Below are positions 9,508 to 64,000 of a stretch of DNA of 64,000 nucleotides, in pieces. The position numbers and the translations under genes are program-made. A model generated the notes under the pieces. The model saw nothing but the letters and a program-made list of their open reading frames with translations. It searched no databases and had not been told where the DNA came from. Numbering within the stretch: the stretch's first letter is position 1; each line of letters opens with the position of its first letter. Origin of the DNA: Zanthoxylum bungeanum (Eukaryota; Streptophyta; Magnoliopsida; Sapindales; Rutaceae); contig SKCR01049639.1 in assembly GCA_019454045.1 (NCBI GenBank), positions 1 through 64,000 on the forward strand, in the 5' to 3' direction.

Positions 9508-9809
9508 CTAAATGTTAAATATAAAAATTAATTTGAGAATTTATCCACTTCGAAAAAATAAATTCCTCTCTATACAAAAAACCCTTTTTGAGGGTTGCTA
9601 TAAGCCAGAGAGAATTTTTTTGAAGCAAGTAGTTGTTACGCTAACAGGAAAAGATTCGAACTTCCCTAAAAAGCTTCTAATATTCCAAGCTGGCTTGTCA
9701 CTCTAGGAATGCTGGGAGCCTCCGAGTGAGGCTGAATGCTTACTCTTCGTAGTTTAGTACAAGTCTTTTTACTAACTCAACGGCTTCAGTCTATATAGTC
9801 TTCACGGGT
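9508..9809. other. Spacer between two LTR elements
   Basis: About 300 bp without a supported gene. The open frame at 9512-9706 is AT-rich with no recognisable motif. The last five bases (9805-9809, CGGGT) are the left flank of the LOG element. Confidence 0.5.
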
Positions 9810-11626
9810 TGATGAGTGGTAAAACTATCAATATTTCCCACTCATTTAACTTAATATTTTGTATAGTTTCTTGAGTTTTGTGAATATTTTGATGTGTTTT
9901 GTGTTATTTTGTAGATAAATAAAGTTTCAGGACATTCTGGAGGTGATTTGGGCAAAACTGTGAAATTTGGCAAAAACAGTATTTTGGTAATTTTGGGCAT
10001 CCTGACAAAAAGGGTATTTTGGTAATTTTGGACATCCCGACACCAAAAATAAAGTTTCAGGACATTCTGGAGGTGATTTGGAGCAAAACTGTGAAATTTG
10101 GCAAAAAGGGTATTTTGGTAATTTTGGGCGTCCCGACACCGAGGGTATTTTGGTATTGCACCGCATGCCACGTGTCAAAAATTCAACGAGCTGTTTTTTT
10201 AGCCACCATGCCACGTGTCGAAAATTCAGCGATCCAAAAAAAAAATATAATAAAATAATAAAATAATAAAAAATAAAAATCAGAAAAATAATAATAAAAA
10301 TTAGATTTTTTTTTTTTTGCCTATAAATAGATTTTGAATTTCTTAGTTTCAATGTACCTCATCCTCTGAAATCCTTATAAATAAAAGAGAGTTCTTCTTA
10401 TTTTCTTCTTATATTCAGTTTTATTTACGCTTTGTAGTAGTAATTCTATCCATCTATGAGTGGGTAACTTCTCTATGCCGAGGTAATAAGGTAATACTTT
10501 TACTTTTGCTATTTAGATTAATCTCCCTTAAAATATAATATAAACTATTTAAAACCTGACTTAATAAAGGATACCGCTATTCTCCGACGGTTGGTTATTC
10601 AATTTAAATTGGTTAAACCTGACTTAATGAGGATACCGCCATACTGGACGGTTGGTTTAAGTTTATAATTCTGTTCCGCCTTATGGCTGGTATATTTGAA
10701 TTTGACTTAATCAGGATACCGCCATTCCGGACGGTTGGTTTAAAATATCACAAGATATATATTATTTTATGGGAAACATCTAAATAGTAAATAGTAGAAG
10801 TTAATTCCTTTTACCTTAGCATTTTATTTATTTTCCCGCATTTACTTTTTAGTAATTTTTATGTTTTTTTTTATTTGTACTAACTATGTGTTATAACTAA
10901 GTTAGTTTTCTAGGTTGTGATGAAATCTAATATCACCGGTTTATAAGAGATTATTTTATAATTTGAGTAATTTAAAGGTTTACTTATTAAGTCTTAAATG
11001 CTTCTTGTTGTTTGATCACCGATAAGATTGATGTGGTAAATCTAAATGAACTAGACATAGAGATTTTAGGTTTCAACCTTTGATTTAATAGCCCACGATA
11101 TTCTTTGAGGATAGATAACCCTTTAATAGATTTCCTTACAGGATAGACATATACCTGTCGGGCGGGGGGGGTAACCATAATTGGAACTTAAACTTAATGA
11201 ATTCAGGTAATTTAATTGACATAGACATATGGTTCAATTGGATTAAACTGGGTATTTGTGTCTGACCATCGACAGATGCTTTCACATAAATTCATGTTCC
11301 AGGTTAGTAAACTGATTTATTACACAAACTTAAAATAATACTTCATCTTTTTAAGATATTAGAATGATTCACAACCCTAGATCTTTTATTTTCCTTTTAG
11401 TTTTCTTTTGTTTTTTTTTTTTTTTATCTTTTTTATTTTATTTAGCAAATCTACAAATCAAATCATTCAAGCAATCAATTCCATTCTCCCTCAATTAGAT
11501 ATTTGTAAATAAATAGTATCAACAATTAATAACAACAGTAGGAATTAAGTCCTCGTGAGATCGATATTTTTATACTACTTGAACGATACGTGCGCTTGCG
11601 TTATACGTGTGTGTTTACGCCTGTCA
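9810..11626 (+). repeat. 5' LTR of LOG element copy 1
   Basis: Starts TGATGAGTGG, ends CCTGTCA, 1817 bp. U3 holds a ~130-bp duplication (9917-10048 and 10050-10170), two GCCACGTGTC G-box motifs (10167-10176 and 10210-10219) and a TATA box CTATAAATAG (10321-10330). Downstream of the transcript start, three ~65-70-bp units ending (G/C)GACGGTTGGTT lie at about 10555-10740. Over sampled stretches it differs from the 3' LTR at roughly 2-3 percent of positions plus small indels. Confidence 0.9.
10321..10330 (+). promoter_or_regulatory. LTR TATA box, LOG copy 1
   Basis: CTATAAATAG, repeated at 16332-16341 in the 3' LTR and, on the minus strand, at 60731-60740 in copy 2. It marks the start of R and separates the promoter-side U3, with its ACGTG motifs, from the transcribed part. 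Confidence 0.7.
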
Positions 11627-11632
11627 AGTTTT

Positions 11633-11650
11633 TGGCGCCGTTGCCGGGGA
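11633..11650 (+). promoter_or_regulatory. Primer-binding site, tRNA-Asp type
   Basis: TGGCGCCGTTGCCGGGGA begins six bases after the 5' LTR and is complementary to the 3' end of plant tRNA-Asp(GUC) including CCA, as I recall it. This primer is known from Athila-type elements. Confidence 0.8.
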
Positions 11651-11763
11651 CTTATTTTTCTTGAGTTATTAATTTTGAAGCTATCTAATTTACTTGTATC
11701 TAATTTTCTTTATTTTTATCTGTAATTTTTTATTACTTCCTTTTGTTTTCAGGTGATTAAAAA

Positions 11764-12189
11764 ATGGAACATTTTGAAATATTACGAGCTTTACAAGATA
11801 CACCCCAAATCCGGGAGCAACAGTCTAGTTTTCTGAGGCCTGTTGTCCAGCCCAACAATTATCACTGGAATCCAGAACCAAGCAACACTACATTTGCTCA
11901 TCAGAATGAAATGGGGAGATGTGTAATATGTGATGGTAACCACCCGAGCGATCAATGTATATACCTTTCAGAGTGGCAGAATTATTGGAATCATTCAAGG
12001 TATGAAGAATCATCACATTTTCCATCTTATCCACCATCTATCTACGATCTTCATCAAGAACCAGAACCATCAGAGGAAGATCAGTTGATTCACATGCTCA
12101 AAAATTTGTTCGAGGAATGGGAAGCTCTATTTGATGTACAAATTCAGAGTCAAACAGCGTCTATACAGAGGATGACAAATCAAGTTTGA
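11764..12189 (+). pseudogene. Gag C-terminal remnant (Athila-like)
   Basis: A 141-codon frame starting ATG just after the leader. It carries CVICDGNHPSDQC (about residues 53-65), which fits the zinc-knuckle-like C-x2-C-x4-H-x4-C block in Athila/Tat Gag proteins. A proline- and tyrosine-rich region follows, then QSQTASIQRMTNQV at the C-terminus, which parallels the conserved Gag segment near the protease junction in that lineage. A full Gag is several times longer, so the N-terminal and capsid parts are missing. The frame stops at 12187-12189 and decayed sequence continues to about 13000. It is a relic rather than a functional Gag. Confidence 0.6.
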
Positions 12190-13052
12190 GAATTAACAGA
12201 TAACTGAATCACATTTCTCACAGAGCAAATTCAAATACTACTGAAGAAGCCTTTCATATCCTGAGATTCATCATGACATCATAACAGAGGACGAGGCTGA
12301 ACAGTATCAAGAATCTGAGGTATCAGTTCAGGAGCCTGCACCAACAAAGTCTCAATTTGATTTTTATTATTCTGACTCTGACGAGGATGAAAAAACTGAG
12401 CTTTTTGTACAAATTGCACCAACAAGAAGGATGATGGAACTTTCCATCCTCAGAATGAAGATCTTGGAGCATGCTTTGCAACGATGTTTGAAGAAGATCT
12501 TCCTGAACCATCCCCATTCCAGTCATATCAGATGAAGACCAAAATATGACATTTCTTTTCATCCTCAGGTTGATAATTTTGAAGCATGTATTTCAAAGAT
12601 GACAGATGAAGAGCTGAATACAGAAATTTTAAAATACATCTGTGAAGAAAATGTGGAGCAAGAAGCAGAGCAAATGGAGGAGCAACTGTAAGACAAAATT
12701 GAAAATTCAGAGCATTCAGGCGAAACATCACTGTATTGGGGGTGTATAAATCAAGAGATATCGCCCAGAAGATTGACAGAATGGAACTTTCCATTCCAAG
12801 TCAAGCACCATACGAGACACCTCCTGATTTTCTTTCTTTCTTTTCAGGAACCAATGGAGCAACAAAGATTAAAAAGGTGGCACGAGCACTGAATGAGACA
12901 AAACTCTTTTTGCTACCTTACCGTTGGAAGAGACCCTTCAAAAGCAACGCACATGAGAATGTCTTTAATAGGACATCCAAAATGACGCTGAAACCTCCTT
13001 GACAGATAGATTTCAGTCACGTCTGGCTGGAGACGTAAAATTAGCGCTAGCA
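12190..13052 (+). other. Decayed element interior, pol absent
   Basis: Short broken frames rich in E, Q and S and no reverse transcriptase or integrase motif. The segment bridges the gag remnant and the Athila-type junction at 13053. The usual 4-5 kb of pol is gone, so a deletion at or near this region created the non-autonomous form. Confidence 0.5.
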
Positions 13053-13065
13053 GGGAGGCAACCCA
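13053..13065 (+). other. Athila-type post-pol junction motif
   Basis: GGGAGGCAACCCA, preceded by GACGTAAAATTAGCGCTAGCA. A near-identical phrase follows pol in many plant Athila-like elements, ahead of the env-like region. Here it precedes the captured LOG sequence, which places LOG in the env position. Confidence 0.6.
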
Positions 13066-13533
13066 TGCAATTTTGTTGTAATTTTTTGTATTCATATTTT
13101 GTGTATACATGTTGTAGAATTTTTAATTTTGTGTGTTGTTTTGTAGGAAAAAGCACAAACGGAGCATTTTAAGACAGAAGGAATGGTGTTTGGCAATCAT
13201 GAAGATGAGAACCAATTCATTAGCGATGGCTGAGTAGGAATGAAATCTTGAGACACATCCTAATTGATTTATATACCAAACGAGTGGCGTATTGCATACA
13301 CAATTCCGTTGCCTTAATTATTGCTTTGATTTGCTTTCTGTTGTAATTATCTTTATTTTCGTAGACAGGATCCAGACTTTTTGACATTTCCACGATTTCT
13401 TTTGTTTGTTTTGCTAACAGCTCCTCCTTGAAGATACTAGTGCTATTATTACTCACCCTTTTTCAGCTACTATAAATTCAGCCCGTCATTGCACTTTTGA
13501 AGGCATCAAGAGTTGAGAAAGAAATACATAAAC

Positions 13534-14174
13534 ATGGAAGCCACTTCAAGAAGACGAGTTGAAAACATTTGTGTGTTTTGCGGTATTAGTGTTGGTATTA
13601 AACCACAATACGTAGAAGCAGCAAAGGACTTGGGTCGAGTCTTAGCTGCAAGGAATATGCACTTAATATATGTCGGAGGAAATCTTGGACTTATGAGGAT
13701 CGTTTCAAAGGAAGACATGTTTTGGGAATCATCCCAAAACCCTTGGCAGAGGCAAATCTGATTGAACCATCAAACGGAGAGGAACTGATCGTGCCAGGTA
13801 TGTCTGAACGACTAGTGGAAATGATTAACCGTTCTGATGCTTTTATTGCTTTGCCAGTGGCTTGGGTACATTGGAGGAAAAATTTTTATAGTACTATCTG
13901 GGCGAACCTGAACATACACCAGAAACCGCATGGACTGCTCAACGTTGATGGATTTTTATGATTTTCTTTGTGTGTTTCTTGATGATGCCCGGAGAAATGG
14001 GTTTCGTGGCAAAACCTATGAAAGAACTCCTTTTATACTGCCAGGTCTGCTCCGAATCTAATAGACCAATTCTTAGCCTATGAACCACAAGTTGATCATA
14101 TCATTTCAAAGATAAAATGGTCCGATGATGATCGTGGTAAGAAGAGTCGATTAAATATGGATCTTAACCTTTAA
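13534..14174 (+). pseudogene. Captured LOG (cytokinin phosphoribohydrolase) pseudogene, copy 1
   Basis: LOG enzymes release active cytokinin bases from cytokinin riboside 5'-monophosphates in the cytosol and nucleus. The frame starts ATG at 13534 and soon reads ICVFCGISVG, the usual LOG N-terminus. Then come NMHLIYVGGNLGLM (Rossmann-type loop, degraded GGGxxGLMG), IPKPLAEANLI, DAFIAL, NIHQKP and GLLNVDGF, and further C-terminal LOG sequence to the stop near 14172-14174. Lesions visible against copy 2 are a ~16-bp deletion after 13708, and loss of one G with gain of A at 13857-13880, which destroys the catalytic PGGxGTxxE block. An extra T near 13955 shifts the frame before the C-terminus. There are no introns, although plant LOG genes normally have several, so capture of a spliced transcript is likely. 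Non-functional as it stands. Confidence 0.85.
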
Positions 14175-14258
14175 TTTGCTTGTAGTAATTCAGCTAACCA
14201 GGTACTATCTTCTAAACTCTTATTCTCTGTTTAAAACATTGAGGACAATGTCTCATTT

Positions 14259-14271
14259 AGGTTTGGGGGTG
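14259..14271 (+). other. Central polypurine tract
   Basis: AGGTTTGGGGGTG follows ACATTGAGGACAATGTC, 85 bp past the LOG end. The same 13-mer recurs at 15801-15813 immediately before the 3' LTR. Copy 2 also has two purine tracts of this kind at equivalent places. Confidence 0.55.
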
Positions 14272-14387
14272 AGGAATAGTTAATAGTACTTGTTTGTATT
14301 GTGTTTTTATTTTTAGTCCAAATTTTTCTAAAATACAAAAAAATTAAAAAATTTTCAAATATTATAACAAAATTATTTGCATTTTTA

Positions 14388-14646
14388 TCAAAGGCATATT
14401 AAAGCTAGGTGATGGTTTGGTGTCTTCCTTCACTTACTACCTCTCTATAAGGAAAAGCTGTGAAGGCACCTAGATAATCATTCACCGTAGCTTTGTTGTG
14501 ATAGACTAGTTTGGAGGACTTTGTTGTTTATATTCCTGACACCAAGCGATAAGAGCCTAAGAGGCTAGGGTACTTAAGAGAGCCTCGCTCCACCCTCATT
14601 TGGGGAATCTACAACGGGAAGTCTATTCGACAGTTAGTCACACACC
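14388..14646 (+). repeat. 259-bp shared module (insertion in LOG copy 1)
   Basis: Runs from TCAAAGGCATATTAA to GTCACACACC and contains AAGCGATAAGAGCCTAAGAG. The same module, about 90 percent identical by eye, lies at 33359-33615 in the unrelated tandem-repeat element. LOG copy 2 lacks it: the sequences flanking it here (TTTGCATTTTT and TTTATGTTGACTAAAA) are almost adjacent there (about 62590-62640). ATTTTT at 14381-14386 and 14663-14668 could be a target duplication of a 276-bp insertion, but the area is T-rich. No terminal inverted repeats or coding frame were seen. Confidence 0.65.
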
Positions 14647-15018
14647 ATGACCAGTAGTAGTTATTTTTCTTTATGTTTTTGTTTTGTTTTTATGTTGACT
14701 AAAAAGATGGAATTGGTAAGAAATAGCTGTGTAAGGAATTTCCACTCCTGAGACGTATTTCAAACCTATATTTCGAAACAAGTTAATTTTTGTTTATTTC
14801 CTTTTGAATTATTTAATTTGTAAATTCTCCATAAAACTGACTAAAATGGATCTTCATATACTTAGTTGGCAGATATTATCAACATACATGGTAACATACA
14901 GACATAAGATAAAATTGAAAAGATTGTAATATTGAGTGCTATAGTTTAATTGGAGAAGCATCTAAAAAAGTGATGGAATAAAACAACAAAAAATACATCT
15001 GAGATCTGAGTTATTAAG

Positions 15019-15108
15019 TCTGTAAGGGTGTTTTAACACCTAGTGCTCTAAAACCAACTGGTTTGGGAGTCATTGGCCCAAAACTCGTTACATGGATAAA
15101 AAATAATG

Positions 15109-15149
<41 letters not shown>

Positions 15150-15248
15150 CTGAAGTCTGGGTAATTAAGTCCGTAGGGGTGTTTTAACACCTGATGCCCT
15201 AAAACCAACTGGTTTGGGAGTCACCGACCTAAAGCTCGCTACATAGAT
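15019..15248 (+). repeat. Two ~80-bp direct repeats, 151 bp apart
   Basis: GGGTGTTTTAACACC followed by CTAAAACCAACTGGTTTGGG occurs at about 15027-15066 and again at about 15178-15217, with an (AT)n tract (15111-15144) between. Copy 2 retains the same pair on the minus strand at about 62060-62280, so the duplication predates the split of the two copies. GGTGTTTTAACACC is itself a near-palindrome. Confidence 0.7.
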
Positions 15249-15800
15249 GGAAGATATTGTATATAATAAAAAATAGAGAAAAAAATCGAAGAAAAAAAAT
15301 CAGAAAAATCAGAAAATTTATTCCATTACTACAAAAGATGTGAACTTTGATAAACTTTAGGACAAAAATATTATTCTCTTATCAACTGCACTTATGACTG
15401 TTGTGGGCAAAAATGAGTTGAAAAACTTTGTTAGCTTGTGTTGTGATATGAAAAATGGTAAATAATCGGAGATTTACTTATTCAGTAATTTAGAATGAAA
15501 CAAAATAACTAGTAAACTTGGAGTATAAGTTTCATCTAAATTAGTCACTAACTTCTTTATTTTCTTTTCTCTTGTCTTTTTGCTTTTGTGTGCATTAGTT
15601 TCACTTCCTTTTTTACTTTTATAAAATATTTGTGGGTATCATTGCTGTAAACCCTCACGAGACTACAACTCGTCCACTAGGGACACCTAGGGGGTTTAAA
15701 GGCTTGTTGCATATGCTAAATGCAATCGTGATCTCTATGAAAGTGGCTTAGTTAAATTTTATTATGTTATTTTATTTTGCTACAGGACTAGCAAAATGTT

Positions 15801-15813
15801 AGGTTTGGGGGTG
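15801..15813 (+). other. 3' polypurine tract
   Basis: AGGTTTGGGGGTG directly abuts the 3' LTR start at 15814, the normal place for the plus-strand primer. Confidence 0.75.
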
Positions 15814-17629
15814 TGATGAGTGGTAAAACTATCACTATTTCACACTCATTTAACTTAATATTTTGTATAGTTTCTTGAGTTTTGTGAATATTTTGATGTG
15901 TTTTGTGTTATTTTGTAGATAAATAAAGTTTCAGGACATTCTGGAGGTGATTTGGAGCAAAACTGTGAAATTTGGTGAAATTTGGCAAAAACAGTATTTG
16001 GTAATTTTGGGCGTACCGGCAAAAAGGGTATTTTGGTAATTTTGGACATCCCGACACCAAAATAAAGTTTCAGGACATTCTAGAGGTGATTTGGAGCAAA
16101 ACTGTGAATTTGGCAAAAATGGTATTTTGGTAATTTTGGGCGTCCCGACACCGAAGGTATTTTGGTAATTGCACCGCATGCCACGTGTCAAAAATTCAAC
16201 GAGCCGTTTTTTTTAGCCACCATGCCACGTGTCGAAAATTCAGCGATCCAAAAAAAAAATATAATAAAAAAATAAAATAATAAAAAAATAAAAATCAGAA
16301 AAATAATAATAAAAAATTAGATTTTTTTTGCCTATAAATAGATTTTGAATTTCTTAGTTTCAATGTACCTCATCCTCTGAAATCCTTATGAATAAAAGAG
16401 AGTTCTTCTTATTTTCTTCTTATATTCAGTTTTATTTACGCTTTGTAGTAGTAATTATATCCATCTATGAGTGGGTAACTTCTCTATGCTGAGGTAATAA
16501 GGTAATACTTTTACTTTTGCTATTTAGATTAATCTCCCTTAAAATATAATATATAAACTATTTAAAACCTGACTAATAAAAAGGATACCGCCATTCCGGA
16601 CGGTTGGTTATTCAATTTAAATTGGTTAAACCTGACTTAATGAGGATACCGCCATACTGGACGGTTGGTTTAAGTTTATATTTCTCTTCCGCCTTATGGC
16701 TGATATATTTGAATTTGACTTAATCAGGATACCGCCATTCCGGACGGTTGATTTAAAATATCACAAGATTATATATTATTTTATGGGAATATCTAAATAG
16801 TAATTAGTAGAAGTTAATTCCTTTTACTTTAGCATTTTATTTATTTTTCCGCATTTACTTTTTAGTAATTTTTATGTTTTTTTTTTTATTTGTACTAACT
16901 ATGTGTTATAACTAAGTTAGTTTTCTAGGTTGTGATGAAATCTAATATCACCGGTTATAAGAGGTTATTTTATAATTTGAGTAATTTAAAGGTTACTTAT
17001 TATCTAAATGCTTAAATCTTGTTGTTTGATCACCAATAAGATTGATGTGGTAAATCTAAAATGAACTAGACATAGAGATTTTAGGTTTCACCTTTAATTT
17101 AATAGCCCATGATCTTCTTTGAGGATAGATAACCCTTTAATAGATTTCCTTACAGGATAGACATATACCTGTCGGGCGGGGGTAACCATAATTGGAACTT
17201 AAACTTAATGAATTCAGGTAATTTAATTGACATAGACATATGGTTCAATTGGATTAAACTGGGTATTTGTGTCTGACCATCGACAGATGCTTTCACATAA
17301 ATTCATGTTCCAGGTTAGTAAACTGATTTATTACACAAACTTAAAATAATTACTTCATCTTTTTAAAGATATTAGAATGATTCACAACCCTAGATCTTTT
17401 ATTTTCCTTACTATTTTCTTTTGTCTTTTTATCTTTTTATTTATTTAGCAAATCTACAAATCAAATCATTCAAGCAATCAATTCTCTTCTCCCTCAATTA
17501 GATATTTGTAAATAAATAGTATCAACAATTAATAACAACAGTAGAAATTAAGTCCTCGTGGGATCGATATTTTTATACTACTTGAACGATACGTGCGCTT
17601 GCGTTATACGTGTGTGTTTACGCCGGTCA
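15814..17629 (+). repeat. 3' LTR of LOG element copy 1
   Basis: Starts TGATGAGTGG, ends CCGGTCA, 1816 bp. It matches the 5' LTR throughout, with scattered substitutions and indels, so the insertion is fairly young. TATA box at 16332-16341. The same three GACGGTTGGT-ending units lie at about 16565-16750. Confidence 0.9.
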
Positions 17630-17634
17630 AGGGT

Positions 17635-33358: not shown

Positions 33359-33615
33359 TCAAAGGCATTGTTAAGGCTAGGTGATGGTTCAATGTCTTCC
33401 TTCACTCACTACCTTTTCTTAAGGAAAAGCTGTGAAGGCACCGATATAATCATTACCCGTAGCTCGTTGTGATAGACTAGTTTGGAGGACTCGTTGTTTA
33501 TTCATGTCACCAAGCGATAAGAGCCTAAGAGGCTTGGGTACTTAAGATAGCCTCGCTCCACCCTCCCTCTGGGGAATCTACAACGGGAAATCTATTCGAC
33601 AGTTAGTCACACACC
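33359..33615 (+). repeat. 257-bp shared module, second copy
   Basis: Same module as 14388-14646, located 90 bp after the primer site. The related element at 45534 lacks it at the corresponding place: its sequence goes from TGTTTGTGGTTTATAC to CATCATGTTAACCC without it. Confidence 0.65.
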
Positions 33616-35215: not shown

Positions 35216-35575
35216 AGTTTTGGGGATGAGTCCCAGGGTTAAGGCCCATATCAGTTTCAGTATTGGGGATGAGTCCCAGGGTTGAGGCCCACGACAGTAT
35301 CGGTCTCGGGGATGAGTCCCAAAGTCGAGGCCCACATCAGCATCAGTATCAGTTTTGGGGATGAGTCCCAGGGTTGAGGCCCACATCAGTATCAGTTTTT
35401 AGGGATGAGTCACAGGGTCGAGGCCCACGGCAGTATCGGTTTCGGGGATGAGTCCCAGGGTCGAGGCCCACATCTTAAGAGTTTTGGAATGAATCTGGGA
35501 ATGAATCCCAGGGTCGAGACCCGTATTGTTAGTTGTTTTGGGAATGAATCTCATAGCCGGGGCCCACATCGTTAG
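35216..35575 (+). repeat. Tandem array A (GGGATGAGTCCC units)
   Basis: About seven units of 45-65 bp built on GGGGATGAGTCCCAGGGT(T/C)G and AGGCCCAC, followed by ATCAGTATCAGTTTT-type spacers. Each unit contains a GGGA...TCCC and a GGG...CCC hairpin. Confidence 0.85.
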
Positions 35576-36005
35576 AATTTGGAATGAATCCCAGGGCCGA
35601 GGCCCACGTCGTCAGAATTTGGAATGAATCCAGGGAATGAATCCCAGGGCCGAGGCCCACATCGTCAGAATTTGGAATGAATCCAGGGAATGAATCCCAG
35701 GGCCAAGGCCCACGTCGTCAGAATTTGGAATGAATCCCAGGGCCGAGGCCCACGTCGTCAGAATTTGGAATGAATCCAGGGAATGAATCCCAGGGCCGAG
35801 GCCCACATCGTCAGAATTTGGAATGAATCCAGGGAATGAATCCCAGGGCCGAGGCCCACATCGTCAGAATTTAGAATGAATCCAGGGAATGAATCCCAGG
35901 GCCGATGCCCATGTCGTCAAAATTTGGAATGAATCCCAGAGCTGAGGCCCACGTCGTCAGAATTTGGAATGAATCCAAGGAATGAATCCCTGGGGCGAGG
36001 CCCAC
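35575..36005 (+). repeat. Tandem array B (GGGAATGAATCCC units)
   Basis: About eight units alternating ~35 and ~53 bp: GTCAGAATTTGGAATGAATC, optional CAGGGAATGAATC, then CCAGGGCCGAGGCCCAC. The longer unit results from an internal duplication of the GAATGAATCC part. Confidence 0.85.
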
Positions 36006-36430
36006 ATCAGCATCAGTCTGGGGCGAGGCCCATATCAGTATCAGTTTGGGGCGAGGCCCATATCAGTATCAGCATAGGGGCTAGGCCCGTATCAGTATCC
36101 ATTGGGGCGAGGCCCATATTAGTATCAGCATAGGGGCGAGGCCCACATCAGTATCCGTTTGGGGCGAGGCCCATATCATTATCAGTTTGGGGCGAGGTCC
36201 ACATCAGTATCAGTTTGGGGCGAGGCCCACGTCAGTATCAGTTTGGGGCGAGGCCATATCAGTATCAGTCTGGGGCGAGGCCCACATCAATATCAGTCTG
36301 GGGCGAGGCCCACATCCGTATCATTTTGGGGCGAGGCCCACATCAGTATCAGTTGAGGGCGAGGCGGCCCACATCAGTATCAGTTCAGGGTCGAGGACCC
36401 ACTACATCATCAGTTTGAGGGCGAGGCCCA
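36000..36430 (+). repeat. Tandem array C (28-bp GGGGCGAGGCCC units)
   Basis: About fifteen near-perfect 28-bp units: AGTATCAGTTT, then GGGGCGAGGCCCACATC. Long open frames across it (for example 36187-36864) arise because units in a multiple of no stop codon stay open; the translated GEAHISIS-like repeat has no known counterpart and I do not call it a gene. Confidence 0.9.
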
Positions 36431-37085
36431 CATTTGCAACAGTATTGGGATGCGTTCCAGGGTCGAGGTGCCCCCGTTGTCGGTTGCAGTTCCGGGATGC
36501 GTCCCAGGGTCGAGGGCCTACTACATCATCTGTTGTAGTTTCGGGATGCGTCCCAGGGTCGAGGACCCACTACATCATCAGTTCGAGGGCAAGGCCCACA
36601 TTGTCAGCGGTATTGGGATGCATCCCAGGGTCGAGGTCCCCCGTTGTCGGTTGCAATTTCGGGATGCGTCCCAGGGTCGAGGGCCCACTGCATCATCATC
36701 AGAATCAGTCTTGCCGGGTATGGCACTCTGGGGGCGAGGCCCACATTAGCATCAGTAACAGTCTTACCGGGTATGGCAATCCGGGGGCGAGGCCCACATT
36801 AGCATCAGTAGCAGTCTTGCAAGGTATGGCAATCTGGGGGCGAGGCCCACATTATTATCAGTAGCAGTAAAACTCGGTATGGCAATCTGGGGGCGAGGCC
36901 CACATTAGCATCAATAGCAGACTTGCCGAGAATGGCATTCTGAGGGTGATGCCCACATTAGTTCAGCATCAGTAGCAGACTTGCCGGGTATGGCATTCTG
37001 GGGGCGAGGCCCACAATGGTTCAGTATCAGTTCTGCCAGGTATGGCATTCTGGGGGCGAGGCCCACATTGGTTCAGATCAGTTTT
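36430..37085 (+). repeat. Tandem arrays D/E (GGGATGCGTCCC and CCGGGTATGGCA units)
   Basis: 36430-36700: about five units with GGGATGCGTCCCAGGGTCGA and CCCAC(T)ACATCATC. 36700-37085: about eight ~56-bp units with TTGCCGGGTATGGCATTCTG and GGGGCGAGGCCCACATT. Both keep the GGGGCGAGGCCC or GGGTCGAGG(G)CCC core of the neighbouring arrays. Confidence 0.85.
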
Positions 37086-37134
37086 GCCAGGTACGACACT
37101 TCGGGGATGGAGACATCAGATCAGTTCAGCCAGG

Positions 37135-37860
37135 TACGGCATCTAGACAACTGCGACACCCTAGGTACGGGGTTAGCACTCAGACATTCGTGGCTCTCTA
37201 GGTACGGAGACGTCACCGCGACACCCTAGGTACGGGGTTAGAATTCAGACATTTATGGCTCTCTAGGTACGGAGACGTCACCGCGACACCCTAGGTACGA
37301 GGTTAGCATTCAGACATTTATGGCACTCTAGGTATAGAGGCGTCACTGCGACACCCTAGGTACGGGGTTAGCATTCAGACATTTGTGGCTCTCTAGGTAC
37401 GAAGACGTCACCGCGACACCCTAGGTACGTGGTTAGCATTCAGACATTTGTGGCACTCTAGGTACGGAGGCATCACCGTGACACCCTAGGTATGAGGTTA
37501 TCATCCAGACATTTGTGGCTCTCTAGGTACGGAGACGTCACCGCGACACCCTAGGTACGGGGTTAGCATTCAGACATTTGTGGCACTCTAGGTACAGAGG
37601 CGTCACTGTGACACCCTAGGTACGGGGTTAGCACTCAGACATTTGTGGCTCTCTAGGTACGGAGAAGTCACCGCGACACCCTAGGTACGAGGTTAGCATT
37701 CAGACATTTGTGGCTCTCTAGGTACGGAGACGTCACCGCGACACCCTAGGTACGAGGTTAGCATTCAGACAACCAACATCATCACTGCGGCACTCTAGGT
37801 ATAGAGACGCAACCGTGACGCCCTAGGTACGGGGTTTAGCACGCCATGAATGGCACATCA
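37135..37860 (+). repeat. Tandem array F (65-bp units, 11 copies)
   Basis: (G)CG(A/T)GACACCCTAGGTACG-type starts fall at 37153, 37218, 37283, 37348, 37413, 37478, 37543, 37608, 37673, 37738 and 37815, a strict 65-bp period except the last. Units alternate TGGCTCTCTAGGTACGGAGA and TGGCACTCTAGGTA(C/T)AGAGG, suggesting a partial 130-bp higher order. CCTAGG is a palindrome within each. Confidence 0.92.
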
Positions 37861-38280
37861 TCAAATCAGTTCGGGAACAAAGCCCACAGGTGGTTCGGGA
37901 ACAAAGCCCAGAGGTCGAGCCACCTCGCCATCACATTCAGCTCGGGAACAAAGCCCAGGGAACAAAGCCCACAGGTGGTTCGGGAACAAAGCCCAGAGGT
38001 CGAGGCACCTCGCCATCACATTCAGCTCAGGAACAAAGCCCACAGATGGTTCAGGAACAAAGCCCAGGGGTCGAGGCACCTCGCCATCACATTCAACACA
38101 ACATGGAACAAAGCCCATAGATGGTTCGGGAACAAAGCCCAGGGGTCGAAGCACCTCGTCATCATAATCAGTTCAATTCGGTAGTGATTCCTAGAGATCG
38201 AAGCATCTTACAGGGATGAACCTCGAGGTCGCGACACCTCACCACATCATCAAATCAGCTCGGAACAACAGGCAAGTCAA
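37860..38280 (+). repeat. Tandem array G (GGGAACAAAGCCC units)
   Basis: About four ~74-bp units, each with two GGAACAAAGCCCA phrases and AGGCACCTCGCCATCACATT. The last unit decays into GGGATGAACCTCGAGGTC. The same GGGAA(C/T)AAAGCCC monomer dominates the array at 47530 in the related element. Confidence 0.85.
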
Positions 38281-41380: not shown

Positions 41381-44300
41381 ATGGCTAGCGGAAACATCAC
41401 AGTACCGGTCTCTCATGGAGAAAAGCCGGAAAAGTTTGGTGGGGCAAACTTTAAACAATGGCAGAGCAAAATGTTGTTCTACCTGACAACTCTCCAATTG
41501 GCTAAGTACCTCAAAGATCCTCCGGAACCTATGGAGGGTGAATCGGCAACAGCCAAGCAACTGCGAGAAGAGACATGGTCGTCTGGCGACTTCTTGTGAA
41601 AGAATTACCTTTTGGGTGGACTTGACAATACCATGTACAATGTGTACCAAGGCATGACTTCTGCAAAGATCCTCTGGGAATCTCTCGAGAAGAAATACAA
41701 AAATGAGGATGCCGGGCAAAAGAAATTTATCGTGGGTAGGTTCTTAGACTATAAAATGGTAGATTCAAGAACAATAATGTCTCAGTTGGGTGAAATGCAA
41801 TTGATTATTCATGAAATACTGGATGAAGGAATGAAACTCTGTGAGACGTTTCAAGTTACCACCATAATTGAAAAGTTACCTCCATCATGGAAGGACTTCA
41901 GGAGCTATCTGAAACACAAAAAGAAGCAGATGGGCATTGATGACCTTTGAGTTTGATTGAGGATCGAAGAGGACAACATGAAGTCCGAGAAGGCCAGCTA
42001 CAAGACTATGGAGTCTGAGGCCAACATCGTCGAGGGTGTAAATGGTAGCAAGAAGAGAAAGAACAGTGGAACTGATTCTTCCCAAGCTAACAAGAAGTTC
42101 AAGGAGAAATACTACAACTGTGGAAAGAGCGGTCATATAGCAAAGGACTGCAGAAACAAGAAGTCTCATGACAAGGGCAAGAAAAAGAAAAATGAGGCCC
42201 ATGTCACTGAAGATGAGAAGCTGACTGAAGAGATCTCAGAGATGAACCTATCAGCAGTGGTAACTAAAGCCAACTTGGTTGGGAATCCGAGAGAATTGTG
42301 GGCAGAAACTGGGGCTACTCGTCATATCTGTGCTGACAGCAAGATTTTTTCCTCGTATCACAAGGTCGATGGCGGCGATCATCTGACAATGGGAAACTCA
42401 TCTACCTCCAGGGTGGTTGGACAAGGCATAGTGGTTCTGAAGATGACATCCGGAAAAGAGCTTACATTGAAGAATGTATTGCATGTTCCAGATATTCGGA
42501 AGAACTTGGTCTCGGGCTCTCTTCTTAGCAAGGCTGGTTTTAAGCTTGTATTTGTTTTTGATAAATTTGTATTGACAAAAATGATGTGTATTTAGGAAAA
42601 AGATACCTCACTGAGGGCATTTTCAAATTCAATGTAATGACTGTCAATCGACACAGTGCTATTAATAAAGCTACAACTTCTACTTATATTATTGAGTCAC
42701 AAAATGTGTGGCATGGGAGGTTGGGACATGTTAATTATGATACAATGCGTAAATTAATTAACATGGACCTTATACCTAAATTTGCAATTGATAGCCAACA
42801 TAAGTGTGAGGCATGTATTGAAGCAAAAATGCATAGAGCATAATTTCATTCCATAGAACGAAGTTCTGATCCCTTGGAACTTGTACATACTGATGTGTGT
42901 GATATGAATATTGTGCAAACAAGAGGCGGTAAAAAGTACTTTGTCACTTTTATCGATGATAGCACAAGATTCTGTTATGTGTATTTGCTGAGAAGCAAAG
43001 ATGAAGCTATTGAGAGCTTTGTACACTATAAGAACGAAGTTGAAAATCAACTTGGCAAGAAAATCAAGAGAATCAGGAGCAATAGAGATGGTGAATATGT
43101 GTCACCATTTGGTGAATATTGTTCCAATCATGGAATTATTCACGAAACCACTGCTTCTTATTCGCCTCAACAAAATGGAATTGCTGAGCGCAAAAACCGA
43201 ACTTTGAAGGAAATGATGAACGCCATGTTGACAAGCTCTGGTTTACCCCAGAACTTGTGGGGGGAAGCCTTGCTTTCCGCGAACTATGTTCTGAACAAGC
43301 TTCCTCATAGAAGATTGGACAAGACACCATATGAGTTGTGGAAATGTCACGTACCTTCCTACAAATACCTAAAAGTATGAAGGTGTCTTGCCAAAGTAAT
43401 AGTTCCTAAACCTAAGAAGGTTAGAATATGACCCAAAATTGTTGATTGTATATTCATTGGATATGCTCAGAACAGTAGTGCATATCGATTCTTGGTACAC
43501 AAGTATGAGATTCCTGACATCAATCTGAATATGATAATTGAGTCAAAGAATGCGACATTTTTTGAAGAGACATTTCCTTGTAAGGAAAGACAAAAAACAA
43601 AGTCTCTCAAAAGAACTATTGATACTGTCAAAGACAGTGATCAGGTTGACCAAGAATCAGATCAACGTGCAAACATTGAGACAATCGAACCTAGACGTAG
43701 CAAACACGTTAGAACGTCTAAGTCGTTTGGTCCCGATTTTCTAACATACTTGTTAGAAAATGAACCTCAAAGCTATAAGGAAGCAATGTCTTCGCCGGAG
43801 GCACCTTTGTGGAAATAGGCTATCAACAGTGAGATTGATTCCATCCTACAGAACCATACTTGGGAGTTGGTTGATCTTCCTCCAGGTTGTAAGCCATTGG
43901 GCTACAAATGGATATTCAAACGGAAGATGAAACCGGATGGATCAATAGATAAGTACAAGGCAAGGCTTGTCATAAAAAGTTATAGACAAAAATAAGGCCT
44001 TGATTACTTTGACACCTATTCACCAGTGACTCGTATCACATCGATAAGAATGGTCATAGCCATAGCAGCTATATTTGGTCTTGAAATACATCAAATGGAT
44101 GTAAATGCGACATTCTTGAATGGTGAATTGGATGAATAGATTTACATGGAACAACCAGAAGGGTTTAATGTTCCTGGACAAGAACAGAAGGTGTGCAAAC
44201 TTGTAAAATCCTTGTACGGATTAAAGCAAACACCTAAACAATGGCATGAGAAATTTGACAAAGAGATGTTGTCAAATGGGTTCAAAACCAATGAGTGTGA

Positions 44301-45302
44301 TAAGTGTGTGCACACCAAATCAACTCAAAAAGGATATGTCATTGTGTGTCTCTATGTAGACGATATGCTGATAATTGGTAGTGATCATGAAATGATTCAG
44401 TCTACCAAGAACGTGTTTTCCAGCAGATTTGATATGAAAGATTTAGGCGTAGCTGATGTGATCCTAGGAATTAAGATTTCTATGACATCATAAGGATATA
44501 TATTATCTCAGACTCATTATATTGAGAAGATACTTGAGAAATATAACAAACGAGATCTAAATATGGCTAGAACTCTTGTAGACCTAACTCTTCATCTATC
44601 AAAGAATACTGGCTCAAGCGTATCACAATTAGAGTATTCGAGAATCATCAGAATTCTGATGTATCTCACGAATTACACACGACCTGATATCGCTCAAGTT
44701 GTGAACAGACTTAGCAGATATACGAGTAATCCAGGACACAACCACGGGAAAGCCATAGTAAGGGTTTTGAGGTATCTGAGAGAAAATTCAAAATATGGGC
44801 TACATTATGAGAGATATTCTGCTGTTCTAGAGGGATACAACGATGCTAACTGGATATCTGATACAGTGGATTTCAAATCTACGAGTGGATTTATTTTCAC
44901 ACTTGGTAATGCAGCCGTGTCATGGAAATCCTCGAGGCAAACTTGAATTGCCCGGTCTACTATGGAATCAGAGTTCATAGCATTAGACAAAATAGTGGAA
45001 GAAGCAGAATGGCTTCGAAATTTCCTGGAGGATATTCCTAGTTGGCCCAAACCGGTGCCAGCGATAAGCATACATTGTGATAGCCAATCGGCTATTGGGA
45101 GAGCCTAAAATACAATGTATAATGGTAAGTCTCGACACATACGTCGGAGACATAATATCATACGTCAACGGCTCTCAAGTGGCATAATATCGATCAATTA
45201 TGTTAAGTCAAAGGAAAACCTAGCGCATCCACTTACTAAAGATTTACCTAGAGAGCAAGTTGATAAGTCATCGAGGGAAATGGGCTTGAAGCCTATAAAT
45301 TA
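41381..45302 (+). pseudogene. Copia gag-pol pseudogene (Tnt1-like)
   Basis: Nearly full-length copia polyprotein in the order Gag (MASGNITVPVSHGEKPEKFG, 41381 on), zinc knuckle (about 42113: [13 protein letters not shown], first Cys replaced by Tyr), protease ([10 protein letters not shown] near 42303, catalytic Asp to Glu), integrase (HTDVCDMN at 42886, FIDDST, then RSNRDGEY near 43074 where the catalytic Asp is Asn, and NGIAERKNRTL), reverse transcriptase (LYVDDMLIIGSD near 44352) and RNase H to HPLTKDLPREQ near 45225. At least ten in-frame stops (for example 41597, 41948, 43816, 44491, 44944) break an otherwise mostly constant frame. Start chosen at the conserved Gag MASG. Both LTRs seem lost. 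Inactive. Confidence 0.88.
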
Positions 45303-47529: not shown

Positions 47530-48060
47530 CAAACAATTCGGGATTAAAGCCCACAATCAGCACAGTTCGGGAATAAAGCCCACAATCAACACAAGTTCGG
47601 GAACAAAGCCCATGGAATAAAGCCCACAATCAGCACAATTCGGGAATAAAGCCCACATTCAGCACAGTTTGGGAATAAAGCCCACATTCAGTACAACTTG
47701 GGAACAAAGCCCATAGTCAACACAGTTCGGGAATAAAGCCCACACTAAGCGCAGTTCGGGAATAAAGCCCACTCTAAACTCAGTTCGGGAATAAAGCCCA
47801 GGGAACAAAGCCCACTCTCTACACAGTTCAGGAATAAAGCCCACAATCAACAGTTCATGAACAAAGCCCACCTCAGTCACAGTTCGGGAATAAAGCCTAG
47901 GGAACAGAGCCTACATTCAATACAGTTCGGGAACAAAACCCACTTTCTACATAGTTTAGGAACAAAGCCCACAATCAACAGCTCGGGAATAAAGCCCACA
48001 CTCAGCTAAATTCGAGAACAAAGTCCAGGGGTCACAAGCACATCGCCATCAATTCAATAC
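47530..48060 (+). repeat. Tandem array (~30-bp GGGAATAAAGCCC units)
   Basis: About sixteen units of CAGTTCGGGAA(T/C)AAAGCCCAC followed by 5-12 variable bases (often AATCAACA or ATTCAGCA). Shares its monomer with array G at 37860. Two units are locally doubled without spacer. Confidence 0.9.
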
Positions 48061-48124
48061 AGTTTGGGAACAAAGCCCAAAGGTCAAAGCATCTCCCACT
48101 CGGTGGTTCGGGAACGAAGCCCAG

Positions 48125-48400
48125 GGGTCAAAGCACCTCTCCATCATCTCTCATCAGTAACGGTTCGGAAATGAACCATCACCTCATACAGTAACGGTTC
48201 GGGAATGGACCACCTCATTCAGTAACGGCTCGAGAATGGACCACCTCATTCAGTAACAGTTCGGGAATGGACCACCTCATTCAGTAACGGCTCAGGAATG
48301 GACCACCTCACAGTAACGGTTCGGGAATGAACCATCCACCTCTTAAGTAACGGTTCGGGAATGAACCACCACCTCACATCAGCTCAGTTCGGTAATGAAT
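48125..48400 (+). repeat. Tandem array (~31-bp GGGAATGGACCAC units)
   Basis: About eight units of AGTAACGGTTCGGGAATG, then (G/A)ACCACCTCATTC. Diverged relative of the neighbouring array. Confidence 0.85.
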
Positions 48401-59395: not shown

Positions 59396-61506
59396 TGACC
59401 AACGTAAACAAACACGTATAACGCAAGCGCACGTATCGTTCAAGTAATATAAAAATATCGATCCCACGAGGACTTAATATCTAATCTATTAATTTATGAG
59501 GTCAAATGATTACTAGTATCTAACAGGTTGTTTTATTGATTTGAAATGGTGACGATTCTAAATTTTAAAAACAAGTAAATAAAATTATTTGAAAGTAGGT
59601 TTTAAGAAAATTCAAAATTAAAAACTATATAGAGTTGTGATTTCTTCCAATATCATTTAAAAGATGAAGTGGTTATCTTAAAGTTGGGTAATATATTGAT
59701 TTATTAACCTCGAACACTAAATTATGTGTAAGCCTCTGTCGATGGTCAGACACAAATACCCAGTTTAACCCAATTGAACCATATGTCTATGTCAACCAAA
59801 TTATCTGGATTCATTAAGTTTAAGTTCCAATTATGGCTACCCCCGCCCGACAGGTATATGTCTATCATGTAAGGAAATCTATTAAAGGGTTATCTATCCT
59901 CAAGGAAGATCGTGGACTATTGAGTCTAAGGCTGAAACCTAAAATCCCTATGTCTAGTTCATTTTAGATTTACCAGATCAATTTTATTAATGGTCAGTTA
60001 ATGAAAAAGAATTAAGATTAAGACTCAATAAATAAATCTTTATAATACCCAAATTATAATCTAACCCCTTATAAACCGGTGATATTAAAAGTCATCACAA
60101 CCCCAGATAACTAATTTAGTTACAACATATAACTAGGGCTAGTAAAAACTTGAAAATAAAAGACATAAAGTAAAAATACGGTAAAGTAAATACTGAAAAG
60201 TAAATTAGAATAAAATAAAATGCTAAGGTAAAAAGAATTACTTTTACTACTACTAATTTAGATATCTCCCATAATATAATATATAAACTTGCGATAACAT
60301 TACCAACCAGCCATATAGGCGGTATCCTAATTAAGTCAAATTAAGTCCAACCAGCCATTAAGGCGGTAAAAAGATTTGTCCATGAATCTGCCATATAGGC
60401 GGTAAGAAAGTTTAATTACCAACCGACCAATCTGGCGGTATCCTTGATTAGTCAGTATTTTAAATAGTGAATATATTATATTTAAGGGAGATTAATCTAA
60501 ATAGCAATAGTAAAAGAATTACCTTTCACCCTAGTTGGGGAAGTTACCTCCTCATGGTGAATAGTAAAAACTGTAAAAAGTAAAAAAGTAAATTACTATT
60601 ATTACAAAGCGTAATTAAAATTAATTATAAAACAAAAAACTAAAAATTAAAAGAAACTAGAGAGAGAAACTCCCTCTTTACATCAAAGAGATGAGAGAGA
60701 GTGGTACAACTGAAACTGGGATTTCGTGCTCTATTTATAGGGGTCAGTAGGGGTCCGGCGTCGCGACGCCCAGCTCGCGTCACGACGCACGTTTTGTCGA
60801 TGTGGCACGCTCTGGTTTGTCGGTTGAAGATTCTGGATAAGGTGATAAGGCGACACGTGGCAAGGTGGTTGGGGCTTAATTATTGTGACACGTGGCGGCT
60901 TCTGATTGGTCGGCTAGATTCTTATCCGCCACGTGTCAGATATGGATAAGAGAGCCAATAATTGATGCTGACGTGGCACTGACGTGGCGGTGACGTGGCA
61001 ATTGGACTGTCGGTACCATATAATCACGACACGTGGCATCTGTCATTGGTTGATGATGACGTGGCAGTGAGGTGGCATGTTGACTCAGTCAACCTGGTGA
61101 TGTGGATGATGACGTGGCAATGACGTGGAGTGACACGTGGCGATGGTGACTGTCGGCACCATAGGATGATGACACGTGGCACGGCGCATGTTAGCAGATC
61201 GGCTGTGGTGGTGACACGTGGCATGATGCACGTTAGCAAAGTCAAACTTTTCTCAGATTCTGATTTGTGGACCCGGTGCACGTTAGCACTGTTCGGCGAA
61301 CGTTAGGCGTCGCGACGCGGCAAATTATCAAAATGCCCTTTTTTTCAATTTTCACGGTTTTGGCTCAAGTCACCTCCAGAATGTCCTGAAATTTTATTTA
61401 TCTACAAAATAACACAAAATACATCAAAATATTCACAAAACTCAAGAAACTATACAAAATATTAGGTTAAATGAGTGGGAAATAGTGATAGATTTACCAC
61501 TCATCA
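59396..61506 (-). repeat. 3' LTR of LOG element copy 2
   Basis: 2111 bp, minus-strand start TGATGAGTGG at 61506 and end GGTCA at 59396. TATA box CTATAAATAG at 60731-60740 (minus). R/U5 aligns with copy 1, including GACGGTTGGT-type units at about 60300-60450. The U3 between 60741 and 61330 is largely unlike copy 1, with an ACGTG cluster and two GCGTCGCGACGC palindromes (60758-60769 and 61307-61318). It is thus a different LTR subfamily. Confidence 0.85.
60854..61222 (-). promoter_or_regulatory. Cluster of 13 ACGTG (G-box/ABRE-like) motifs in U3
   Basis: CACGTGGC or TGACGTGG boxes occur near 60854, 60889, 60928, 60969, 60980, 60991, 61030, 61058, 61110, 61121, 61134, 61173 and 61214, about one per 28 bp, upstream of the minus-strand TATA box. 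In plants such ACGT-core boxes bind bZIP and bHLH factors (ABA, light and stress responses). The sequence shows the motifs; activity is inferred. Confidence 0.6.
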
Positions 61507-61519
61507 CACCCCCAAACCT
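61507..61519 (-). other. 3' polypurine tract, LOG copy 2
   Basis: Minus strand AGGTTTGGGGGTG, identical to 15801-15813, next to the LTR start. Confidence 0.75.
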
Positions 61520-62801: not shown

Positions 62802-63454
62802 TTAAAGGTTAAGATCCAGATTAATCCGACGCCTCTTACCACGAACGTCCTCAGACCAATTTATCTTTGAAAGAATAGGATCAACTTGTGGTTCATAGGC
62901 TATGAGTTGATCAATTAGATCCAGAGTAGTTCTGGCAGTAAAGAGGAGTTCTTTCATAGGTTTTGACACGAACCCATTTCTCCGGGCATCATCAAGAAAC
63001 ACACAAAGAAAATCAAAAAAATCCATCAACGTTAAACAGTCCAAGCGGTTTCTGGTGTATGTTCAGGTTCGCCCAAGAAAGCACTATAAAAATTTCCTCC
63101 AATGTGCCCAAGCCACCTGGCAAAGTGATAAAAGCATCAGCATGGTTAATCATTTCTACTAATCGTTCAAACATACATGACACAATCAGTTCATCTCCGT
63201 TTGATGATCCAATAAGATTTGCCTCTGCCAAGGGTTTTGAGATGATTCCCAAAACATAAATGCCTCCTTCCTGTACAGCCTTTGAAACGATCCCCATTAG
63301 TCCAAGATTGCCTCCGCCATATACTAAGTGCATATTCCTTGTAGCTAAGACTCGACCCAATTCTTGTGCTGCTTCTACATATTGTGGTTTAGTACCAACA
63401 CTACTACCGCAAAACACACAGATGTTTTCACTCGTCTTCTGAAGTGGCTTCCAT
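62802..63454 (-). pseudogene. Captured LOG (cytokinin phosphoribohydrolase), copy 2
   Basis: Intron-less LOG coding sequence, better preserved than copy 1. On the minus strand it reads ENICVFCGSSVG, NMHLVYGGGNLGLMG (63292-63318, GGGxxGLMG intact), ISKPLAEANLIG, DAFITLPGGLGTLEE (63094-63120, catalytic PGGxGTxxE intact) and NIHQKPLGLFNVDGF. After a one-base shift in a T run near 63015 it continues DFLCVFLDDARRNGF to KINWSEDV and a lysine/arginine-rich end. Without that shift it would be close to the usual ~210-residue LOG length. A second shift lies just after the ATG (63454-63452), though the frame is open further upstream. Probably a pseudogene with few lesions; a sequencing or homopolymer error cannot be excluded. 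Confidence 0.82.
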
Positions 63455-63589
63455 GTTTTACTCTGGATGTCTTCAAAAGTGGAATGATGAGTTGAATTTA
63501 TAATACCTGAAAAGGGTGTGTGTAAAAATAGCACTAGTATCTTCCAAGGACGATTGTTAGTTAAACAGTAATAAAACAAATCGTGATAG

Positions 63590-63898
63590 TCAAAGGTTTG
63601 GATCCCGTCGGTGAAAATAAAAGAAAACAACAAAACAAATCACAATTATCAGGAAAAGACAAAGAGATATAATATTTACAAAAAAGTAACGGCTTGATTG
63701 ACGTCTATGCGTCAGGGACAGCTTCCCATCCAATTTTCTTATAAATTGGCAAACATGGTCTTTTTGAGTCAGATTCCCGAGACTTAACATTTGTCTTTCC
63801 TTTTGGAATTGTGCATATAACATGCGAATTTCATGATACACACATCCACTGGGATGCGTCTCAAGAGTTTTAGATATGTCATCCAAAGACTCCTTACT
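63590..63898 (-). CDS. Unknown ORF upstream of LOG, hydrophobic C-terminus
   Basis: A ~100-codon frame open from a TAG near 63899, with no ATG at its head, so it may be the tail of a longer frame interrupted by a stop. It reads LSKESLDDISKTLETHPSGC, then a basic, Q-rich part, then a ~22-residue hydrophobic stretch (IISLCLFLIIVICFVVFFYF) and HRRDPNL at the end. The hydrophobic part could be a membrane segment or simply T-rich untranslated or intron-like sequence. Copy 1 has a shortened, broken counterpart near 13230-13370. No family recognised. Confidence 0.25.
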   Translation of the reverse strand, partial: SKESLDDISKTLETHPSGCVYHEIRMLYAQFQKERQMLSLGNLTQKDHVCQFIRKLDGKLSLTHRRQSSRYFFVNIISLCLFLIIVICFVVFFYFHRRDPNL

Positions 63899-64000
63899 CA
63901 GCCATCCCTAATGAAATTAATCTTATCTTCGCGGTTATCAGACACCATTCCTAAAGAACGACAACGAGTATTACAATACATACGAGCACATTTATAACAA
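63899..64000 (-). other. LOG element interior, cut by window end
   Basis: Contains GGAATGGTGT(C)TG and CGATGGCTGAGTA-like phrases aligning with 13180-13235 of copy 1. No gene visible. Confidence 0.5.

Follow-up and report, generated by a model that had tools for sequence, protein, structure and literature searches.

An Athila-like retrotransposon family of Zanthoxylum bungeanum and the LOG-type gene it carries

Could a gene of the LOG family of cytokinin-activating enzymes be a regular part of a plant retrotransposon? The window analysed here, a 64-kb stretch (64,000 nucleotides) of Zanthoxylum bungeanum DNA, contains at 9810-17629 a complete long terminal repeat (LTR) retrotransposon, termed element 1, with a broken LOG gene inside. 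A second element (element 2; 59396-64000, minus strand) lies only partly inside the window, ends at its edge and carries a further LOG copy. Based on the comparison with the host genome, we consider it likely that both belong, in decayed form, to a large Athila-like Ty3/gypsy family that was active recently and in which LOG and an extra open reading frame (ORF) are accessory genes kept by the element.

The two elements of the window

Element 1 has paired LTRs with TG...CA ends, a primer-binding site, a polypurine tract and an imperfect 5-bp target-site duplication, CGGGT/AGGGT, with four of five bases equal (Table 1). The reverse complement of the primer-binding site is what we take to be the 3' end of tRNA-Asp. 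The two LTRs differ by 36 substitutions over 1786 aligned sites, which corresponds to a Kimura two-parameter distance (K2P) of 0.0205. Between them, gag is reduced to a remnant, three pieces of which were scanned against Pfam with no match, and pol is missing except for its end, beyond which no part of it was recognised. It should be noted that the LTR of element 1 also contains an internal 131-bp repeat (9917-10155, 1.8 copies), and that words such as TTTTGGTAATTTTGG are repeated within the LTR.

The LOG copies of the two elements share 86.8% DNA identity, and the sequences on either side of LOG match as well, in pieces of 75-91% identity. The first-pass annotation of this DNA, made from the letters of the window, had placed the same LOG at the same relative position in both elements, and this is confirmed by flanks that are related rather than unrelated. 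The frameshifts and deleted codons of the two copies were counted against an intact relative, P0003, a protein of 217 residues that is 100% identical to two places in the host genome. Upstream of LOG, element 2 retains part of the extra ORF, which was identified by similarity to the ORF of a longer genome copy (L039, described below); its 32-residue piece alone has no Pfam match.

Table 1. Positions of the features of elements 1 and 2 in the window
Feature	Position	Strand	Remarks	Basis
Left target-site duplication CGGGT	9805..9809	.	right partner AGGGT at 17630-17634; 4/5 bases equal	sequence
5' LTR of element 1	9810..11626	+	TGATGA...CTGTCA	LTR comparison
Primer-binding site	11633..11650	+		sequence
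gag remnant and pol end	11761..13002	+	several frames, one piece with CVICDGNHPSDQC	ORFs; region common to other copies
GGGAGGCAACCC junction	13053..13064	+	read as coding end of pol (...LALAGRQP)	ORFs and comparison with other copies
LOG copy 1	13534..14174	+	intronless; 7 frameshifts, 5 codons deleted; frame no longer has the catalytic motif	
Conserved non-coding stretch 3' of LOG	14388..14646	+		common to other copies
Polypurine tract AGGTTTGGGGGTG	15801..15813	+	directly before the 3' LTR	sequence
3' LTR of element 1	15814..17629	+	TG...CA ends	LTR comparison
3' LTR of element 2	59396..61506	-		sequence comparison
LOG copy 2	62805..63454	-	3 frameshifts in all, no stop; PGGLGTLEE lies in the open frame 63013-63639	
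Extra ORF of element 2 (virus-type, nucleic-acid-binding-like), 3' part	63719..63999	-	two pieces, including the zinc-finger region; ORF cut by window edge	

Copies and carriers in the host genome

The assembly that contains the window (3.956 Gb, 51,709 contigs) was searched for further copies, as the first-pass annotation had proposed. A plastid-derived matK piece, at 91% identity to Zanthoxylum calcicola, 87% to Calodendrum and 86% to Skimmia (the latter two likewise Rutaceae), points to Zanthoxylum as the genus of the host. With the element DNA as query, 78 matches were obtained from 29 scored candidates of 45,111. In the whole or long copies read, the window copy (L001) and six others (L002-L007), LOG occupies the same position and has the same sequences on either side; L003 and L004 share an identical LOG and so do L005 and L006, which makes these pairs near-duplicates. 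With P0003 as query, all 150 scored matches cover 215-217 of the 217 residues at 87-100% identity, and 125 of them are stop-free. With an ordinary plant LOG, P0087, all 150 scored matches span at least 198 of 229 residues, 145 being stop-free. The two lists have eight contigs and five places in common (positions compared by eye) and together give at least 295 distinct full-length or near-full-length intronless LOG places among these best-scoring matches, 265 of which have no in-frame stop in the matched stretch. Open LOG frames in the host genome number in the hundreds.

What carries an intact LOG could be read at L039, on contig C28299, whose flanks were read as two separate stretches. There the order is 5' LTR, primer site, gag, pol pieces, GGGAGGCAACCC, extra ORF, LOG, polypurine tract and 3' LTR. 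The gag is a 713-residue frame (Retrotrans_gag, 1.8e-22), and the pol pieces match RVT_1, RT_RNaseH, Integrase_H2C2 and rve in broken frames, with rve below its cut-off in each piece. Since these gag-pol domains precede an intact LOG in the longer member, element 1 looks like an internally deleted derivative of a gag-pol family. The LTR pair of L039 has a K2P of 0.0022 and five LTR pairs range from 0.0022 to 0.0349; with values this low, the family appears to have been active recently. On contig C30059, we also found a tandem LTR-LOG-LTR-gag-LOG-LTR arrangement without pol (L041, 1380-10000, with L042), which probably arose by unequal recombination.

Several claims of the first-pass annotation can be judged from these carriers. 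LOG does lie in sense orientation inside an LTR element, in the env slot between pol and the 3' LTR, and has been amplified with it. The element had been called non-autonomous, a description which does not hold for the family, since gag, reverse transcriptase, RNase H and integrase domains stand upstream of the intact LOG in L039. It had also been expected that an env-position frame follows the GGGAGGCAACCC junction; LOG does occupy this slot, but as the second ORF, the first in L039 being the virus-type nucleic-acid-binding-like one.

The suggested Athila affinity is retained, because a primer site of tRNA-Asp type and the position of the extra ORFs fit a carrier that looks like an Athila-like Ty3/gypsy family. 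Athila likewise has a tRNA-Asp-type primer site, extra ORFs between pol and the 3' LTR and long non-coding parts, this primer type being one of several among the non-chromoviruses, while an additional RNase H marks the Tat lineage (PMC6317226). The only RNase H found in the scanned ORFs of L039 is the usual one linked to reverse transcriptase, where broken frames could conceal another. In place of the ORF-1 domain described for Athila (PMC6317226), the extra ORFs of the present family encode LOG and a Carla_C4/Viral_NABP-like protein.

LOG and its neighbour ORF

By sequence and predicted fold, the element LOG belongs to the LOG family. In copy 1, the second frame matches Pfam PF03641 (1.5e-11) and NCBIfam TIGR00730 (4.1e-12) and the first frame matches TIGR00730 (1.2e-9), these being matches of broken pieces with the TIGR00730 score below its cut-off. 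The Arabidopsis LOG-family chain 2a33 matches the copy 1 frames with 8.2e-16 and 3e-12, and the open frame of copy 2 matches PF03641 at 2.6e-26. The TIGR00730 cut-off (96.35 bits) is passed by P0003 (173.7 bits), P0002 and P0023. The NCBIfam equivalog CtkRMPhLog, with a cut-off of 300 bits, is reached neither by P0003 (114.4 bits) nor by P0002 (109.6 bits), but it is an unfair test for plant LOGs, because the ordinary plant LOG P0087 fails it too (132.7 bits). The fold predicted for the element LOG has a predicted local distance difference test (pLDDT) score of 85.1, and its best PDB match is again 2a33 (E 8.3e-20).

The catalytic PGGxGTxxE motif is present in P0003, in window copy 2 and in 17 of 30 genome copies. 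Among 26 aligned proteins, P113, G114, G115, G117, T118, E120 and E121 are invariant, and R98 nearly so. A further feature is the C-terminal tail, a basic stretch with an LxLxL end, which occurs in 56 of the 70 element-type proteins that have a complete C-terminus by our filter. The LxLxL end is kept in 26 of the 30 genome copies and in none of the 11 ordinary LOGs, and ten Sapindales-type proteins lack it, retaining just the basic stretch. The tail is short and is predicted to be disordered in the structure model.

Where did this gene come from? A tree of 90 rows (89 of 120 listed relatives, of 195-260 residues, and window copy 2; rooted on the ordinary LOGs by choice) separates 11 ordinary LOGs from the other 79 rows with a Shimodaira-Hasegawa-like approximate likelihood-ratio test (SH-aLRT) support of 100. 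The 79-row clade includes Populus and Sapindales proteins. When a 70-residue piece of an ordinary LOG was compared with the genome, 18 of 150 matches started at residue 15-17 and ended at 64 with 71-90% identity, two of them with a stop; we take these as host exons bounded by introns. By contrast with these fixed ends, 127 of the 150 run through both exon end points at 40-48% identity and are of element type, and the remaining five comprise two full-length matches at 67% and three matches that contain stops (two at 77%, one at 62%). The two full-length ones (C2730:2267-2476 and C42560:158954-159163) cover all 70 residues without interruption, are unlike both the host exons and the element copies, and possibly represent a separate LOG retrogene. 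The host-type LOG matches among those listed are exon-sized, and no donor gene could be picked out among them. Since the element LOG is a single intronless 651-bp frame, it most likely came via spliced RNA.

A 2011 study by Steinbauerova et al. is said to be the source for gypsy elements with a YgdH/LONELY GUY domain, and Citrus belongs to the same plant family as Zanthoxylum (Rutaceae, Sapindales). Citrus sinensis, C. clementina and Populus trichocarpa have Ty3/gypsy elements for which a LOG-type (YgdH) domain has been reported (PMC9289625). Consequently, the presence of a LOG domain in gypsy elements is not new in itself, and a hormone gene in an LTR element, which the first-pass annotation had expected to be unusual, is known in kind. 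Because the LOG clade is shared with Populus and Sapindales proteins and such Citrus and Populus elements have been published, the capture probably predates this family, and a single capture by the element in question, also proposed at first, is not upheld.

The present elements resemble those of Citrus and Populus in having a LOG-type domain in a gypsy LTR element, with Populus proteins in the same LOG clade; they differ in that the domain was reported there in consensus sequences, the available text giving no neighbour ORF, selection test or deleted derivatives (PMC9289625). The gypsy elements of orchids with an m6A-demethylase (AlkB-like) are similar in that a host-type enzyme gene has become fixed in an LTR lineage, but the enzyme is another one, whose activity was measured there (PMC9289625). 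In the largely open-access papers covered by the search, most of them by listing, we came across neither the Carla_C4/Viral_NABP-type ORF linked to LOG nor this number of open frames, the selection pattern or the tail. Judged by title, abstract and terms, a single paper (PMC9289625) was relevant to LOG, YgdH or lysine decarboxylase within LTR elements, and a search linking carlavirus-type proteins with retrotransposons gave nothing relevant by listing.

The extra ORF between pol and LOG, of about 182 residues, is conserved and matches Pfam Carla_C4 (PF01623) and Viral_NABP (PF05515). One or both families score above the curated cut-off in seven of eight genome copies scanned, L013 falling just under both. 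Of 236 candidates from a protein search, 211 are relatives at E 0.01 or better; PF01623 is precomputed on all 120 of the 211 that are listed, and those of the listed matches that have a name belong to Xanthoceras, Populus, Acer, Rhamnella and three Orobanche species. When 67 aligned relatives were scanned at E 0.001, 53 matched Viral_NABP and 52 Carla_C4, with no other family listed, and cysteines 85, 88, 93 and 97, after a KKRRAK stretch, are conserved in at least 90%. This basic stretch followed by four close cysteines is shared with the cysteine-rich proteins of carlavirus type. Unlike these, the extra ORF sits in a retrotransposon, is about 182 residues long and has a conserved C-terminal part beyond the Pfam-matched stretch, which is 38-120 of 182 in P0121. 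The structure model is of low confidence (predicted template-modelling score, pTM, 0.34) and has no BFVD match at E 0.001 or better; five of its 18 weak matches (ranks 1, 2, 3, 6 and 7) are silencing suppressors or nucleic-acid-binding proteins of plant viruses. Scans of viral contigs with the extra-ORF alignment and with P0003 found no relatives of either. At 23 of the 30 genome loci, traces of the extra ORF occur in the 1.5 kb that precede LOG.

Both ORFs look constrained when the ratio of nonsynonymous to synonymous differences per site (pN/pS) is followed through the copies. Among the 30 genome LOG copies (435 pairs), pN/pS falls through 0.62, 0.43, 0.33, 0.23 and 0.15 as pS rises from 0.04 to 0.39. 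The differences by codon position are 5604/3254/10130 in LOG; for the non-coding flank, these loci give 8213/8102/9232, and the flank is also more diverged than LOG (9.2% vs. 6.7%). Because the 30 copies had been selected by protein score, the count was repeated on six copies that were not (the two of the window and four found by DNA): pooled pN/pS is 0.43 over 15 pairs, with pairs at 0.25-0.56 except the closest, and window copies 1 and 2 alone give 0.47 (0.28-0.82). The pattern in these sequences is that of purifying selection, with LOG under constraint as long as its lineage replicates and open to decay once a copy has inserted. For the extra ORF (15 of the 23 loci, 105 pairs), pN/pS is 0.38-0.41 in diverged pairs and 1.20 in the 10 closest.

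Explanations and other features of the window

With the anatomy, copy number and codon pattern as its basis, the accessory-gene reading would run as follows. An older lineage of such elements would have taken up LOG in processed, intronless form. The longer form has the order 5' LTR, gag, pol, extra ORF (about 182 residues), LOG, conserved non-coding region and 3' LTR. Selection on the element would keep LOG as an accessory gene while single copies, once inserted, decay; element 1 and other deletion derivatives could still spread. The element LOG may still make cytokinin bases and so raise active cytokinin where the element is expressed, which could shift the expressing cells to a dividing or meristem-like state where new germline insertions are favoured, and could help the element to reach dividing or germline cells. 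Its neighbour protein, judged from the domain matches, may bind nucleic acid and blunt silencing.

Several observations weigh against this reading. The closest pairs are unconstrained, with pN/pS 2.75 in seven very close pairs of the 30 copies and a ratio (dN/dS) of 2.8 between copy 1 and its near relative L002, the closest pair of the six-copy set, and the choice of the 30 copies by protein similarity lowers pN. The exact PGGxGTxxE is kept in only 17 of these 30 best copies, 18 have a stop, and six (L015, L020, L021, L022, L030 and L037) share a stop at the same catalytic-motif site, which suggests that lineages whose LOG is dead have multiplied; the motif losses and the shared stop argue against a strict need for LOG in cis. 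L020-L022 look like one insertion or recent duplicates. The extra ORF left no trace within 1.5 kb upstream of LOG in seven of the 30 loci, and four of the 15 copies compared contain stops. Furthermore, the matches behind the 295 places are the best-scoring of 58,664-70,454 first-look candidates, which biases the open fraction upward; one insertion may count as two places where both haplotypes are present, which makes the number of insertions uncertain; and LTRs were looked for at only a few. Finally, pol was read in broken frames in the single long member, L039, and no working element is shown.

A more specific version, which we regard as tentative and rather doubtful, is that the two genes form a selectively maintained accessory cassette, in which a silencing-countering, cysteine-rich nucleic-acid-binding protein of virus type and a cytokinin-activating LOG with a basic, EAR-like tail would together bring about a cell state permissive for transposition. 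The analogy is with plant viruses, which use suppressors, and with gall-forming microbes, which use cytokinin. Potato virus M, for example, has a cysteine-rich protein that acts as a silencing suppressor (PMC10219291). If the cassette were real, whether plant retroelements manipulate the hormone state and silencing of the host as viruses do would become a testable question.

Alternatively, LOG could be a neutral passenger, caught by chance, copied with the element and useless to it. The broken copies of the window and many others, the motif stop common to six copies and the ratio of 2.8 would be expected then, and captured gene pieces are common in plant LTR elements (PMC13317346). However, 265 of 295 places are open, the third-position excess is much weaker in the flank, pN/pS is 0.15-0.43 in diverged pairs or sets, and long-lived open 217-residue proteins of Populus and this host fall in one clade. 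The passenger explanation is possible for many copies but leaves the codon pattern unexplained, and we consider it unlikely for the family.

It seems similarly improbable that the LOG domain is kept for another job, for instance nucleotide binding or the recruitment of a host corepressor via the basic, LxLxL-ending tail. The EAR motif is known for its link to corepressors, and the distribution of LxLxL between element-type proteins and ordinary LOGs fits such a role, as does the tail retained by most of the 13 genome copies that lack the exact catalytic motif. Against it stand the invariant residues of that motif, the Sapindales-type proteins that do without LxLxL, and the shortness and predicted disorder of the tail.

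A single capture by a non-autonomous element of this lineage, amplified in trans, as the first-pass annotation had it, is now very unlikely. Element 1 and L002-L007 do have a gag remnant and LOG with no room for pol between them, but LOG follows gag-pol in L039, which refutes the proposal as stated unless L039 regained pol by recombination; the extra ORF that precedes LOG in 23 of 30 other copies and the LOG clade shared with Populus and Sapindales proteins also speak against it. That the copies are host LOG genes or retrogenes hit by element insertion would fit the intronless, retrogene-like frame but is hardly credible, since LOG sits at the same position between element-specific flanks in L001-L007 (near-duplicates included), differs from host-type exons in identity to the ordinary query and in its ends, and forms a separate clade in the tree. 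Some gene models named 'LOG' or 'LOGL10-like' in Populus, Xanthoceras and relatives may be retroelement genes, which would inflate counts of the LOG family.

The non-coding stretch 3' of LOG is itself well conserved, with a mean column identity of 90% over 21 aligned copies (that of element 1 and 20 others). As a structured RNA it is a weak candidate (single-sequence folding; z -1.9, with 7 of 200 shuffles folding as well) and was set aside; a scan of the window against Rfam at gathering thresholds gave no match. A stray copy of this stretch with 89% identity lies at 33359-33615, and it may be a fragment of another subfamily, because five loci (L016, L017, L027, L032 and L033) match this region over about 410 bp. 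Elsewhere in the window, pieces of a Copia-type pol (Pol_BBD, zinc knuckle and integrase core) occur in separate frames at 41957-44946. Several tandem arrays with periods of 28 to 199 bp and words of GGCCCA/AAGCCCA type lie at 35216-38175 and 47541-48370, and the former stretch includes a repetitive open frame of 259 residues (36085-36864).

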